Below are positions 3,262-9,173 of a stretch of 64,000 nt of DNA, piece by piece (the first letter of the stretch is position 1; each line of letters starts with the position of its first letter). The notes under the pieces are model-generated. The model had not been told where the DNA came from, did no database searches, and was given only the letters and a program-made list of their open reading frames with translations. The position numbers were made by a program, and so were the translations under genes. This stretch comes from Bolinopsis microptera (lineage: Eukaryota; Ctenophora; Tentaculata; Lobata; Bolinopsidae), in contig NC_087082.1 in assembly GCF_026151205.1 (NCBI RefSeq), positions 14,603,365 through 14,667,364 of the forward strand. Direction: 5' to 3'.

Positions 3262-3757
3262 TATTAACTTTAAGTATATATGCAGAAATATATAAAACAG
3301 GAATATATAAAACAGAAATATATAAAACAGAAATCGCGATCGACATTATAAAATTAAATTTCGTCAAGTTGAAAAATAGTAAAGTTTGTACTACTAAACT
3401 ATATTTCAAACTTGCATTGAAGAAATTACACACAAAGTATCAATATGCGTTGATTGAATTTGATATATATATATATATTTGAGCCATACTGATGAGTCCT
3501 AATAGGACGAAACACTGTGTCTATATATATATATATATATTTCGTTGCTGTACTCCTACACATTAATATATATATATAATAGTTTATAGCCTGGGCCGGG
3601 TCCGGGGTCCGGTCCTAGAACCCTCACTCCTCAGGTTGCTATCTATCCAGAGCCCTTGCGCTTGCAGTGGCGCGAAAGCACATGGTATTGGTTAGGTTGT
3701 AGGTGAAGTCTTCAGGTAAAGTTTTTGATGCATCAATTTTAGTTGTAACTAGTACTA
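3262..3757. other. intergenic, AT-rich, contains the ribozyme
   Basis: Between gene A and the first dispersed repeat. Short repeats of ATATATAAAACAGA lie at about 3289-3335 and several (AT)n runs at 3463-3580. Apart from the hammerhead motif no gene is seen. Confidence 0.6.
3463..3540 (+). ncRNA. type I hammerhead ribozyme with minimal stem III
   Basis: All core parts are in order. CTGATGA is at 3489-3495. Stem II is GTCCT/AGGAC (3496-3500 and 3504-3508) with a 3-nt loop. GAAA is at 3509-3512. A tiny stem III (A3512-T3520, C3513-G3519, A3514-T3518) is closed by CTG, followed by the cleavage triplet GTC (3519-3521). Stem I starts ATA (3486-3488) with TAT (3522-3524), then an internal loop on the 5' side, then long (AT)n arms (3463-3478 and 3525-3540) that can pair. 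The predicted cut is after 3521. A very short stem III with an open stem I is typical of hammerheads in Penelope-like elements and retrozymes of animals. No reverse transcriptase lies next to it, so it is a solitary copy here. The motif is seen directly; activity is inferred. Confidence 0.85.
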
Positions 3758-4083: not shown

Positions 4084-4275
4084 GGGGGTGATTCGAAATC
4101 AGCGACCATAGATACACCGAATGAGATGACTTTCATGCCCTCAAGGCCTTTTTACAAGAATTTTCTGAAAATTTCAAAGAAAATTCTTGTGAAAAGGCCT
4201 TGAGGGTACGGTATGAATGTACTCTTGTTCGGTGTACGTACTATTTTTGAACGCTGATTCCGATCAATCACCCCC
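4084..4275. mobile_element. foldback MITE, 192 bp
   Basis: Nearly the whole element is one inverted repeat. It opens GGGGGTGATT and closes AATCACCCCC. Inside, CACCGAA, CCCTCAAGGCC and CAAGAATTTTC each recur as reverse complements around a centre near 4175. No target duplication was clear. Non-coding. Confidence 0.8.
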
Positions 4276-4882: not shown

Positions 4883-5980
4883 TCAGATCTCTGTATATCC
4901 TCGTCTTCTTTGAGACAGATAACGAACTTTTCCATAGATGGCAAGTGGCAGAAGGAGGACTTTTGTTATGTAGTTTCTGTACCGTGCTCTCAGTTCTGGT
5001 TTACGAAGGATCAGGATGGTTGGGAACACTGCTGCGTTTATCAAGGGAAGGGTGAATTGTAACAATACAATGAGGGGGTATGGGACGTCATACCCCAACC
5101 AGATAGCGATTGTATTCACGCAATACAAAGAGACGCTAATCAAGTACAGTAACGAGATTAGAAACACTGTTAAGTTAACTTGGTTTGCAGTGTTCAGCTG
5201 TGGGTTTTCGTGACCTCCAAAGGCTTTCTTTATATAGATCATCTGAAGCATCATGCATACAAGCACAATCAAACAAGGCAAACCAAACTGAACTAAAGCC
5301 ACAACTACCTCCATGATATGGTACATAAGCGTTGCTGCACCATCAGAAAATCCAAAGTGACGCACCATCAACACTAATACACGGAGTGTTGTGCCATGTC
5401 CGATTGTTTCTATTTCAGTCATCACGTTCCATGGACCCAAAGCAACACCACATTTTGGGTTATCATTTGAACTAGTTGTGAGATCATTCCAGGCCCAAAC
5501 ATCAATAATGCACAGGACTAGGAGAATGGACAGGTAAATGAAAAGGAATATTGTCAAAACTCGGTTATTCAGACTGTAAAATGGACGCATTATGTTGATG
5601 GTCTTCACAACCGTTAGCGCAAGAACGAAATATGCGGAAGTAACGTAGCACAGTGTACCAAACAGTTGGCAGACCAGAAAAGTCCAAGGATGCATCCTCA
5701 AAGACGGGTCCTTCAAGCACAGCAGTGATATTGAGCCTCGTCCTATCTCTGAACACGCACTTCCAATATCCACAGCAGCAACCATAATGAAGAACAGGTA
5801 CGAAATCCTTCTCCAGTCCTTGTGGTAATCATATATGATCATTGCGTTCTGGATCATGATATAAACAGCTATCATGATATTGAGTGGGGATATATACTGA
5901 AAGCCAAAGTCATGACCGTCATAAACTAGAGAGGTACTGGGAGGCGAGTTTGTGGTAGTCATATTGTTTGTCCAGATCAT
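4883..5980 (-). CDS. rhodopsin-like (class A) GPCR, tandem copy 1
   Basis: About 365 residues with seven hydrophobic segments. Its role is that of a plasma-membrane receptor; the ligand is unknown. TM1 and ICL1 read MIIYDYHKDWRRIS, and TM2 has an Asp in FIMVAAVDIG. The TM3 end has KTINIMRPFY where many relatives have DRY. ICL3 has IYIKKAFGGHENPQLNTA, and TM7 has LINAAVFPTILILR in place of NPxxY. The frame is open upstream to 6088, but a good acceptor (TTCCCCGCAG, minus strand) ends at 5985, just before AAAAATG. The start is therefore put at 5980 (MIWTNN) or at MTTT (5962), which matches the paralogue's start. Residues N-terminal to that are probably intronic. It differs from copy 2 by roughly 15% of residues, concentrated in the extracellular half. 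Confidence 0.85.
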   Translation of the reverse strand: MIWTNNMTTTNSPPSTSLVYDGHDFGFQYISPLNIMIAVYIMIQNAMIIYDYHKDWRRISYLFFIMVAAVDIGSACSEIGRGSISLLCLKDPSLRMHPWTFLVCQLFGTLCYVTSAYFVLALTVVKTINIMRPFYSLNNRVLTIFLFIYLSILLVLCIIDVWAWNDLTTSSNDNPKCGVALGPWNVMTEIETIGHGTTLRVLVLMVRHFGFSDGAATLMYHIMEVVVALVQFGLPCLIVLVCMMLQMIYIKKAFGGHENPQLNTANQVNLTVFLISLLYLISVSLYCVNTIAIWLGYDVPYPLIVLLQFTLPLINAAVFPTILILRKPELRARYRNYITKVLLLPLAIYGKVRYLSQRRRGYTEI

Positions 5981-6870
5981 TTTTCTGCGGGGAATTAAAC
6001 AGGATTTAACTATTGAACATGAATTAAACATGAAATGACCAAGGAGAACCCCAACGAACTCGTCTTGGTAATACAACAATTCATACAACTTATATGACGG
6101 AGCTAGATCATAGATAGATAGATGATGACAGAAACTATAACATAAGTGATTTTAAATTTCCTTGAATAAAGCTTAATTAAGCTAGCGGGTGTACAGGAAG
6201 CCTATGAGCTAGGTAGGCAGATAACTTAGTGTTTACCACATTATAAGGTACAACACTCATACTCGAAAAAAGCTTTAAAATCGTACAAGAAAAATATATG
6301 GTCAGGAACAGGTTGTAATTATACGGAATATTGAAACTGTCCCTTTAATCACGAATCAATACGAACAAAAAGGTAGATTGATAACAGCGTGAATATGAGG
6401 TATATAAGATGAGCTATAGGAATGAATAGATATGTTTCGCTCTATAAGGCAGCTGACCCAGGCCGAGTCTATCGAGCACAAAATAAAAGGATGAAACATT
6501 TTTCCTGTAGGCTTGTAGTAAAAATATACTAGCTTGTTGAGGATTACAAGCGATGAGCTATTCTTACTTTATATCACAAGATCCAATCATGTCCTAACAT
6601 TCCCTACTCAAAGTCAATATCCCATTCACTGTTATTATTAAGCAAAGAAGGTACACGAAACGTGTGCGAACAATATTGCGTTATCGATCCAGCTATTGTC
6701 GTGCGAAATACCTACAGCTTTACACGTCACGAGGCACACTGTTCCTACTCAAGTATTGTATCCTACAAATCTTCTCTCCAGATACTACATATAATACAAT
6801 ATTTTATACTATATAATACTATATTTATTCAGGCAATACTATCAATAATATATATCTATTTATTTGACCA
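5981..6870 (-). promoter_or_regulatory. upstream region of GPCR copy 1 (5' intron/promoter)
   Basis: Non-coding DNA almost identical to 8292-9178 upstream of the second GPCR; only a handful of substitutions are visible over about 750 bp. It should contain the first exon and promoter of the receptor, but no TATA box or donor site could be fixed. A run of A lies at 6884-6899 at the duplication junction. Confidence 0.45.
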
Positions 6871-7211: not shown

Positions 7212-8291
7212 TCAAATCTCTGCATATCCTCGTCTTCTTTGAGCCAGATAACGAACTTTTCCATAGATGGTGAGTGGCAGAAGGAGGAATTTTGTTACGT
7301 AGTTTCTGTACCGTGCTCTCAGTTCAGGTTTACGAAGGATCAGGATGGTTGGGAACAGTACTGCGTTTATCAAGGGAAAGGTGGATTCTAACAATGCAAT
7401 GAGGGGGTATGGGAGGACGTAATACACCCAGATAGCGATTGTATTCACGCAGTACAAAGAGACGCTAATCAAGTACAGTAACGAGATAAGAAACACTGTT
7501 AAGTTAACTTGGTTTGCAGTGTTCAGCTGTGGGTTTTCGTGACCTCCAAAGGCTTTCTTTATATAGATCATCTGAAGCATCATGCATACAAGCACAATCA
7601 AACAAGGCAAACCAAACTGAACTAAAGGTAAAACTATCTCCATGATAATCATCATAAGAGTTGCCGCGCCAGAAGACAATACAGTGTAATGCCTCATCAA
7701 CAGTAATACACGGGTTGTTGTGCCGTCTCCGATTGTTTCTATTGCAGTCATCACGAACCATGGACCATAGAAACCACTACATTTTGGGTTATCGTTAATA
7801 TTAGTTATGAGATCATTAAAGGCCCAAACATCAATAATGCACAGGACTAGGAGAATGGACGGGTAAATGAAAAGGAATATCTTCAAAACTCGGTTATTCT
7901 GCCTGTAAAATGGACGCATTATGTTGATGGTCTTCACAACCATTAGCGCAACAACGAAATATGTGGAAGTAACGTAGCACAGTATACCAAACAGTTGGCA
8001 GACCAGAAAAGTCCAAGGATGCATCCTCAAAGACGGGTCCTTCAAGCACAGCAGTGATATTGAGCCTCGTCCTATCTCTGAACACGCACTTCCAATGTCC
8101 ACAGCAGCAACCATAATGAAGAATAGGAACGAAATCCTTCTCCAGTCCTTGTGGTAATCATATATGATCATGGCGTTCTGGATCATGATATAAACAGATA
8201 TCGTGATATTGAGCGGGGTTATATACTGAAAGCCAAAGGGATGACCGTCCATAACTAGAGAGGTACTGGGAGGCGAGTTTGTGGTAGTCAT
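7212..8291 (-). CDS. rhodopsin-like (class A) GPCR, tandem copy 2
   Basis: 359 residues, intact, with seven membrane segments, paralogous to the gene 2.3 kb to its left. It starts MTTTNSPPST at 8291; a minus-strand acceptor TTATTCCCCGCAG ends at 8296, four bases before the ATG, so the 5' untranslated region is on another exon. KTINIMRPFY replaces DRY and LINAVLFPTILILR replaces NPxxY. The stretch from VQFGLPCLIVL through VNTIAIW (about 65 residues, TM5 to TM6) is identical between copies, whereas ECL2, upper TM5 and the TM6-TM7 loop differ strongly. Probably a chemosensory or peptide-type receptor; the ligand cannot be read. Confidence 0.87.
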   Translation of the reverse strand: MTTTNSPPSTSLVMDGHPFGFQYITPLNITISVYIMIQNAMIIYDYHKDWRRISFLFFIMVAAVDIGSACSEIGRGSISLLCLKDPSLRMHPWTFLVCQLFGILCYVTSTYFVVALMVVKTINIMRPFYRQNNRVLKIFLFIYPSILLVLCIIDVWAFNDLITNINDNPKCSGFYGPWFVMTAIETIGDGTTTRVLLLMRHYTVLSSGAATLMMIIMEIVLPLVQFGLPCLIVLVCMMLQMIYIKKAFGGHENPQLNTANQVNLTVFLISLLYLISVSLYCVNTIAIWVYYVLPYPLIALLESTFPLINAVLFPTILILRKPELRARYRNYVTKFLLLPLTIYGKVRYLAQRRRGYAEI

Positions 8292-9173
8292 TGTTCTGCG
8301 GGGAATAAGGCAGGAATTAAACTATTGAACATGAATTAAACATGAAATGACCAAGGAGAACCCCAACGAACTCGTCTTGGTAATACAACAATTCATACAA
8401 TTTCTATGACGGAGCTAGATCATAGATAGATAGATGATGACAGAAACTATAACATAAATTATTTTAAATTTCCTTGAATAAAGCTTAATTAAGCTAGCGG
8501 GTGTACAGGAAGCCTATGAGCTAGGTAGGCAGATAACTCAGTGTTTACCACATTATAAGGTACAACACTCATACTCGAAAAAAGCTTTAAAATCGTACAA
8601 GAAAAATATATGGTCAGGAACAGGTTGTAATTATACGGAATATTGAAACTGTCCCTTTAATCACGAATCAATAGAACAAAAAGGTAGATTGATAACAGCG
8701 TGAATATGAGGTATATAAGATGAGCTATAGGAGTGAATAGATATGTTTCGCTCTATAAGGCAGCTGACCCAGGCCGAGTCTATCGAGCACAAAATAAAAG
8801 GATGAAACATTTTTCCTGTAGGCTTGTAGTAAAAATATACTAGCTTGTTGAGGATTACATGCGATGAGCTATTCTTACTTTATATCACAAGATCCAATCA
8901 TGTCCTAACATTCCCTACTCAAAGTCAATATCCCATTCACTGTTATTATTAAGCAAAGAAGGTACACGAAACGTGTGCGAACAATATTGCGTTATCGATC
9001 CAGCTATTGTCGTGCGAAATACCTACAGCTTTACACGTCACGAGGCACACTGTTCCTACTCAAGTATTGTATCCTACAAATCTTCTCTCCAGATACTACA
9101 TATAATACAATATTTTATACTATATAATACTATATTTATTCAGGCAATACTATCAATAATATATATCTATTTA
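8292..9173 (-). promoter_or_regulatory. upstream region of GPCR copy 2
   Basis: Duplicate of the region upstream of copy 1, with very few differences (for example TTAGTG versus CTCAGTG near 8537). It should hold the promoter and first non-coding exon. No element could be assigned with confidence. Confidence 0.42.

Follow-up and report, generated by a model that had tools for sequence, protein, structure and literature searches.

The Window Locus

The window analyzed here is a 64,000-nucleotide stretch of the Bolinopsis microptera genome (NC_087082.1, positions 14,603,365 to 14,667,364, forward strand) and forms part of contig C11 of the 264.65-Mb assembly that we searched. Plus-strand open frames reach up to 2876 and match no Pfam model at E 0.01. 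An ATTAAA at 3353 lies between this upstream gene and a hammerhead ribozyme motif, which sits within a series of short, adjoining features:

3464 to 3477, unstranded: 5′ (TA)n run of the insertion site, pairing as the 5′ arm of outer stem I
3477 to 3524, plus strand: 48-bp retrozyme remnant holding the whole hammerhead core (blastn to the L001 unit)
3489 to 3521, plus strand: hammerhead catalytic core with stems II and III (RF00163 alignment, 32.6 bits)
3522 to 3539, unstranded: 3′ (TA)n run that separates the retrozyme from the PLE remnant and supplies the 3′ arm of outer stem I
3540 to 3566, minus strand: 27-bp inverted 3′ terminus of a Penelope-like element (PLE) of family A, with C-terminal GIY-YIG, tail to tail with the retrozyme
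3567 to 3578, unstranded: outer (TA)n run beyond the PLE remnant

Three other features of the window were recorded. A plus-strand reading frame contains a long tandem repeat encoding EIGEQ-type units (1405 to 1760), and a near-perfect inverted repeat at 4131 to 4218 resembles a small palindromic repeat element and scores far under the thresholds of several miRNA families. Two very similar hydrophobic frames, probably membrane proteins, lie in tandem on the strand opposite the ribozyme's (4883 to 6151 and 7212 to 8321, minus strand); neither matches a Pfam model at E 0.01.

A Hammerhead Core Completed by (TA)n Arms

An earlier note on this DNA had claimed a complete hammerhead core, and such a core is indeed present at 3489 to 3521 (plus strand). 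It is of type I and complete, with the motifs CTGATGA and GAAA, a 5-bp stem II (GTCCT/AGGAC) and a 3-bp stem III (ACA/TGT) with loop CTG, and cleavage is predicted between 3521 and 3522, after C3521 of a GTC triplet. The Rfam model RF00163 aligned to 3486 to 3524 (plus strand) with 32.6 bits, 1.4 short of the gathering score of 34 (E 6.5e-7 for the 131 bases searched, 3.2e-4 for the whole window), and a scan of the window with Rfam at the gathering threshold gave no match. The score deficit sits in stem I, where three of the six model pairs align. Stem I is CCATA/TATGG in the family described below, and the window copy misses its GG side: GGATA is lacking and (TA)n follows TAT directly, which leaves the CC on the 5′ side of the stem unpaired. 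As the GG of stem I is lost and the score is under the Rfam threshold, self-cleavage by the window copy itself is doubtful, judging from its sequence.

The earlier note was right that (AT)n arms complete stem I as a fold. The outer arms of the window copy pair (minimum free energy −25.2 kcal/mol, z −4.19), none of 200 shuffles was as stable, and this stability is owed to the arms; an array copy of the family has ordinary stability against its own shuffles (z 0.53). Unconstrained folding favored a nonhammerhead structure in all three sequences compared, the hammerhead fold and the predicted minimum being −13.7 vs. −25.2 kcal/mol in the window, −7.5 vs. −11.7 kcal/mol in the array copy and −17.7 vs. 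−22.6 kcal/mol in L014. Energy models leave out tertiary contacts, and folding therefore leaves ribozyme activity undecided.

The 48-bp remnant corresponds without mismatch to positions 233 to 277 plus 1 to 3 of a repeat unit and is identical to an array copy; blastn against the L001 unit gave 45 of 45 identical bases up to the cleavage site, then TAT. The 3′ (TA)n tract (3522 to 3539) occupies the place that TATGGATA has in the family. Beyond it, 3540 to 3566 equal the PLE end in L013 at 26 of 27 bases (by visual comparison; a blastn search at E 1e-4 misses this piece), and 3′ ends of the L013 type close GIY-YIG PLE copies. The statement of the earlier note that no reverse transcriptase (RT) is adjacent thus stands as regards RT coding parts, of which none was seen, but overlooks the inverted PLE 3′ end adjoining the ribozyme.

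The Core Belongs to a 277-bp Retrozyme Family

The earlier description of the hammerhead as standing alone fits the window, which contains a single RF00163 match even at E 10, but not the genome. At E 0.001 or better, RF00163 found at least 69 matches, 67 of them above threshold, a lower bound as the best 74 of 35,411 first-look candidates were scored (the other profile counts from genome searches are likewise lower bounds from the best candidates). The covariance search that the note had suggested as a check finds nearly all of the listed family copies above threshold and leaves the window copy below it (32.6 vs. 34), the lowest score among the genome matches listed. Allowing up to three mismatches, we found 84 genomic occurrences of the 36-nucleotide core, 62 of them exact, and 0 of its reversed control, which places the window core far beyond chance.

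In arrays on C1, C6, C9, C12 and elsewhere, the hammerhead copies lie about 277 bp apart. The unit is 277 bp long, with 45.1% GC in one L001 unit, and occurs as single or tandem copies, the longest array (L002) having about 6.5 units. As a retrozyme we counted a type I hammerhead in a short noncoding tandem repeat of 150 to 450 bp, with low GC (<50%) as a further mark; the family shows both, and the window contains a single piece of one unit. The 277-bp family is an animal non-LTR retrozyme and fits the published description. This longer tandem family bears out the suggestion of the earlier note that the hammerhead is a remnant related to retrozymes.

Upstream of the ribozyme, the unit contains motifs resembling the A and B boxes of Pol III promoters, 42 to 51 bp apart. 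With patterns written after inspecting the sequence, we found 37 such pairs in 19 fetched loci (L076 among them repeating L030) and 0 in 20,000 shuffles of one unit. The A and B boxes expected of a tRNA-derived SINE are therefore present as motifs. ARAGORN found 0 tRNA genes in seven loci and Rfam gave no tRNA match in seven loci at E 0.1, so that no recognizable tRNA fold accompanies the box motifs there.

Two loci show unusual arrangements. In L028 (607 to 3573), about 3 kb of other DNA split a unit within its ribozyme, and beyond them the array resumes with TGTGTCTATGG. In L021 (454 to 573), two retrozyme ends stand face to face with a short piece of another repeat between them and (TA)n on both sides, forming a large inverted repeat.

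Most Insertions Share a 3′ End in (TA)n, and Their 5′ Ends Vary

We compared 61 entries and reduced them to 53 insertions by merging two L028 pieces and dropping probable duplicates (L008, L032, L035, L044, L056, L058 and one of two L013 copies). TATGG directly follows the cleavage site in 50 of the 53 (L004 and L048, reading TATGGAT, included), or in 50 of 55 if the degenerate arrays L052 and L055, which have other ends and stand outside both sets, are added; the three copies lacking it are the window copy, L057 and L059. Within 45 nucleotides 3′ of the cleavage site, 43 insertions have A and T alternating over 8 nucleotides or more, and 10 have no such run; a run of this kind is found at the 5′ end of 32 and at both ends of 25. 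The background frequency is 0.56% of 5,000 random positions, drawn from this window only. Together, the recurrent TATGG (50/53) and TA run (43/53) identify the (TA)n arms of the window hammerhead as DNA of the insertion site.

The 5′ ends vary along the unit, with 10 of the 53 insertions starting at unit positions 228 to 242. Nine copies are single and contain the ribozyme only (the window copy, L005, L015, L016, L017, L018, L050, L051 and L054); L003 starts within the same interval but runs on into a further unit. Four insertions start at positions 3 to 6 and comprise one or two whole turns (L009, L025, L030 and L040). The nearly constant 3′ end, the variable 5′ ends and the head-to-tail multimers fit target-primed copying, and we infer that copying starts just 3′ of the ribozyme on a circular or multimeric RNA.

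Two PLE Families End in the Same Kind of Site

We located PLEs by their GIY-YIG domain and distinguished four families. The PLE-A and PLE-B proteins are 89.8% identical over 1,000 residues and have the domain at the C terminus; in PLE-C and PLE-D it is N-terminal. GIY-YIG was the only Pfam domain above cut-off in the four families. No Pfam RT model matched PLE-A, B or D even at E 10, and a PDB search with PLE-A returned only two unrelated matches (E 0.67). Across 445 aligned columns (E 3e-9), PLE-A and PLE-D are 22% identical, and LRDD in A faces the YQDD of D; the motif [YFW]xDD is present in PLE-C and D and absent from A and B. From these alignments, a distant RT in PLE-A/B is likely.

In the fetched PLE-A/B copies, A/T alternation of 10 to 42 nucleotides follows each of the 18 distinct outer 3′ ends (the end common to L068 and L069 enters a single time, and an L063 end truncated at the border of its locus is excluded); the loci had been picked with a query reaching into (TA)n (L060 to L068), by GIY-YIG (L069 to L072) or by nearness to retrozymes (L075 to L077). 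At the two internal tandem junctions of these families, the alternation extends over 9 nucleotides and is followed by GCAC. Comparison of copies allowed us to place the 3′ boundary in five PLE-C/D loci (C: L078, L079 and L083; D: L080 and L081), and in all five the longest alternation is 3 to 5 nucleotides. No (TA)n longer than 6 nucleotides was found in eight PLE-C/D-type loci, of which L073 and L074 stop before the 3′ end and L082 is a UTR piece only. Ends in (TA)n are therefore not common to all PLEs of this genome, the comparison among retroelement families covering PLE-A to D. The (UA)n end of PLE-A falls within the loop of a predicted hairpin, and the corresponding A/U-rich stretch of the retrozyme, where copying would start, lies beside stem I. 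RF00163 gave no match at E 1 in three PLE-A/B loci scanned.

As a separate observation, the UTR or pLTR of the PLE families with N-terminal GIY-YIG contains motifs resembling the Twister-P5 ribozyme (RF02684):

L080, 674 to 718 and 3989 to 4033: RF02684 motif in both pLTR copies
L078, 3899 to 3956, and L079, 3816 to 3873: RF02684 motif
L074, 1499 to 1543, minus strand: RF02684 motif
L081, 4708 to 4752, L082, 2057 to 2101, and L083, 958 to 1006: RF02684 motif

The scores in the PLE-C/D-type loci are 26.8 to 34.3 bits, under the gathering score of 37.6. At least 42 matches were found in the genome at E 1 (best E 0.002), and 8 of 14 control genomes also matched at E 1, none of them over the cut-off. 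The P1 stems differ in sequence between the two families and keep their pairing in the alignments; in L083, the inner stem has broken pairs. If the motifs are real, PLE-C/D carry a twister where other PLEs carry a hammerhead. Among titles and opening lines of abstracts, no report combined Penelope-like elements with twisters or Naiad with ribozymes; excerpts of a review mention twisters in RTE elements (PMC7761336).

Retrozymes and PLEs as Neighbors

PLE-A/B sequence lies within 300 bp of the retrozyme ends (blastn) in 12 of the 61 entries, or 10 after merging of duplicates. Retrozyme and PLE stand tail to tail in L013, L014, L056 and the window, and the remaining pairs have the same direction or an inverted PLE upstream, giving mixed orientations. 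The loci L054, L056 and L058 contain the same ribozyme-only remnant within related flanks, and L056 alone of them has an inverted PLE-A end in (TA)n beside the remnant, the layout of the window. The presence of the PLE end in L056 and its absence from L054 and L058 indicate that such pairs can be built stepwise and support insertion of the PLE into the (TA)n tracts of the retrozyme. A PLE end and a retrozyme can thus arrive, or be lost, separately, and we rejected one-event coinsertion as a general reading since these three loci differ.

For 4 of the 61 retrozyme positions, an A/B-type GIY-YIG match is found no more than 2 kb away, against a mean of 0.09 and a maximum of 2 in 2,000 random sets, and for 0 of them a C/D-type match; this count excludes C70 and C162 and keeps duplicates, arrays having been merged manually, and the labels were assigned by eye, the A/B set possibly including other GIY-YIG genes. 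The expectation assumes random positions, and a common liking for (TA)n may by itself explain all of the adjacency. The retrozyme unit gave no blastn match to the PLE library at E 1, and in the absence of such similarity the case for a partner is built on the shared site.

Interpretation and Alternatives

We consider the feature in the window very probably a strongly 5′-truncated, 48-bp copy of a SINE-like non-LTR retrozyme within a (TA)n microsatellite, next to an inverted PLE end of similar shortness. As such it is an ordinary remnant, and its interest comes from the family to which it belongs and the site which that family shares with PLE-A/B. We infer a circular template, priming by (TA)n and cleavage activity of the retrozyme from the anatomy of the copies. 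Transcripts of tandem copies would cleave themselves at the hammerhead and a host ligase would close the circles, steps described for retrozyme RNA of other animals in excerpts of PMC7229834. A partner enzyme would cut (TA)n DNA and leave an end that primes reverse transcription on GGAUAAAUAU, the A/U-rich sequence immediately 3′ of the ribozyme. Because copying would begin beside the ribozyme, even very short copies would keep a hammerhead at their 3′ end. More than one turn of copying would give tandem copies; in the window copy, copying would have halted just past the ribozyme. Since (TA)n is self-complementary, the insertion site would supply a long outer stem I to even the shortest of copies.

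The most likely partner would be PLE-A/B, which end in the same kind of site, and on the strength of that shared site we give this assignment roughly an even chance. The A/B enzymes would use (TA)n ends to begin copying retrozyme RNA. According to excerpts of PMC11167929, both strands of AT-rich DNA are cut and extended by PAc, the PLE protein of a lizard, which begins reverse transcription within a stem-loop of its RNA, where homology to the cut DNA is lacking; the priming by (TA)n pairing proposed here differs from that of the lizard enzyme. More broadly, and with a confidence falling slightly short of even, animal retrozymes could be parasites of PLEs that target (TA)n. The PLE enzyme would open a (TA)n tract, the ends of which would prime on either retrozyme RNA or PLE RNA, and since (TA)n is self-complementary the site could be reused in either direction, building tail-to-tail pairs such as those of the window and L056 step by step. 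If this is true, each insertion, even one of 48 bp, plants a hammerhead whose outer stem I comes from the target DNA.

A serious competitor, tentative but plausible, is that another enzyme (that of a LINE or an unsampled PLE) moves the retrozyme and that PLE-A/B merely share its liking for (TA)n. The lack of common sequence between retrozyme and PLE-A/B speaks for it, as does the PLE end of L056, separable from the ribozyme remnant. On the other side, the PLE-C/D boundaries lack (TA)n, which is hence not a trait of every retroelement here, and the retrozyme and A/B ends share a site type and are neighbors more often than random positions would be.

Another source for the 3′ tract would be a tail made by the reverse transcriptase rather than target DNA, which would suit its greater frequency compared with the 5′ tract (43 against 32 of 53). 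We regard this as unlikely, for tracts flank 25 of the 53 insertions on both sides and PLE ends occupy the same tracts.

The earlier note had linked the short stem III to PLEs as well as to retrozymes, and a PLE 3′ end does adjoin the hammerhead, so that a minimal hammerhead of a PLE, carried in its pLTR, might be suspected. The short stem, however, is a trait of the whole retrozyme family, and in the genome HH9 matched twice at E 10, reaching 25.1 bits at best where the cut-off is 52, and HH10 gave 0 matches, neither model having any match above cut-off. RF00163 found nothing at E 1 in five PLE loci of families A to D, the hammerhead is part of a 277-bp unit having no sequence in common with the PLE library, and the window has a 27-bp inverted PLE end in place of a pLTR around the ribozyme. 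A PLE ribozyme is accordingly very improbable. The same low standing applies to the domestication suggested in that note, here taken as a ribozyme that would trim the mRNA in the 3′ UTR of the upstream plus-strand gene: the hammerhead shares the strand of the gene, follows the end of the frame by about 610 bp, and has a fully intact core, but eight sister copies, likewise single and truncated in a similar way, lie elsewhere, the ATTAAA at 3353 separates gene and ribozyme, the upstream frames (up to 2876) are without a Pfam match, and an intact core is common to 62 copies and needs no local selection.

Comparison with Known Systems

Metazoan non-LTR retrozymes are described, in excerpts of PMC7229834, as tandem, noncoding units of 170 to 400 nucleotides with a type I hammerhead and less than 50% GC. 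The Bolinopsis family is like them in its type I hammerhead, 277-nucleotide unit, tandem copies and 45% GC; it is unlike them in its pair of motifs resembling A and B boxes and in its nearly constant 3′ end in (TA)n, and the window copy differs as a single truncated fragment. Lone animal hammerheads can arise without host function, and the truncation seen here is one route.

A 2020 review, in the excerpts considered, states that animal retrozymes have no conserved motif that reveals their autonomous partner and names PLEs/Terminons as likely candidates (PMC7761336). Within the searches made, titles and opening lines of abstracts reported neither (TA)n targeting by animal retrozymes nor a partner proven to mobilize them. 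The about 60 listed retrozyme positions, the nearly constant 3′ junction, the unusual target that retrozyme and PLE have in common, and the long open frames of the two (TA)n PLE families make the question of the partner directly testable.

Promoter-type motifs and a hammerhead are also combined in the SINE-like repeats Sm-alpha and Sj-alpha of schistosomes, which hold a Pol III type promoter and a hammerhead in one short repeat; the Bolinopsis unit is likened to them by description. Penelope-like elements with minimal hammerheads have been described (excerpts of PMC7761336). PLE-A/B resemble these hammerhead PLEs and the lizard PAc in their GIY-YIG endonuclease, AT-rich target and tandem/pLTR structure, and the start of reverse transcription by PAc in an internal stem-loop has a counterpart in the PLE-A end within a predicted hairpin loop. 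Unlike in the hammerhead-bearing PLEs, the PLE-A/B loci scanned here are without a hammerhead, and the ribozyme is found in a nonautonomous element instead.
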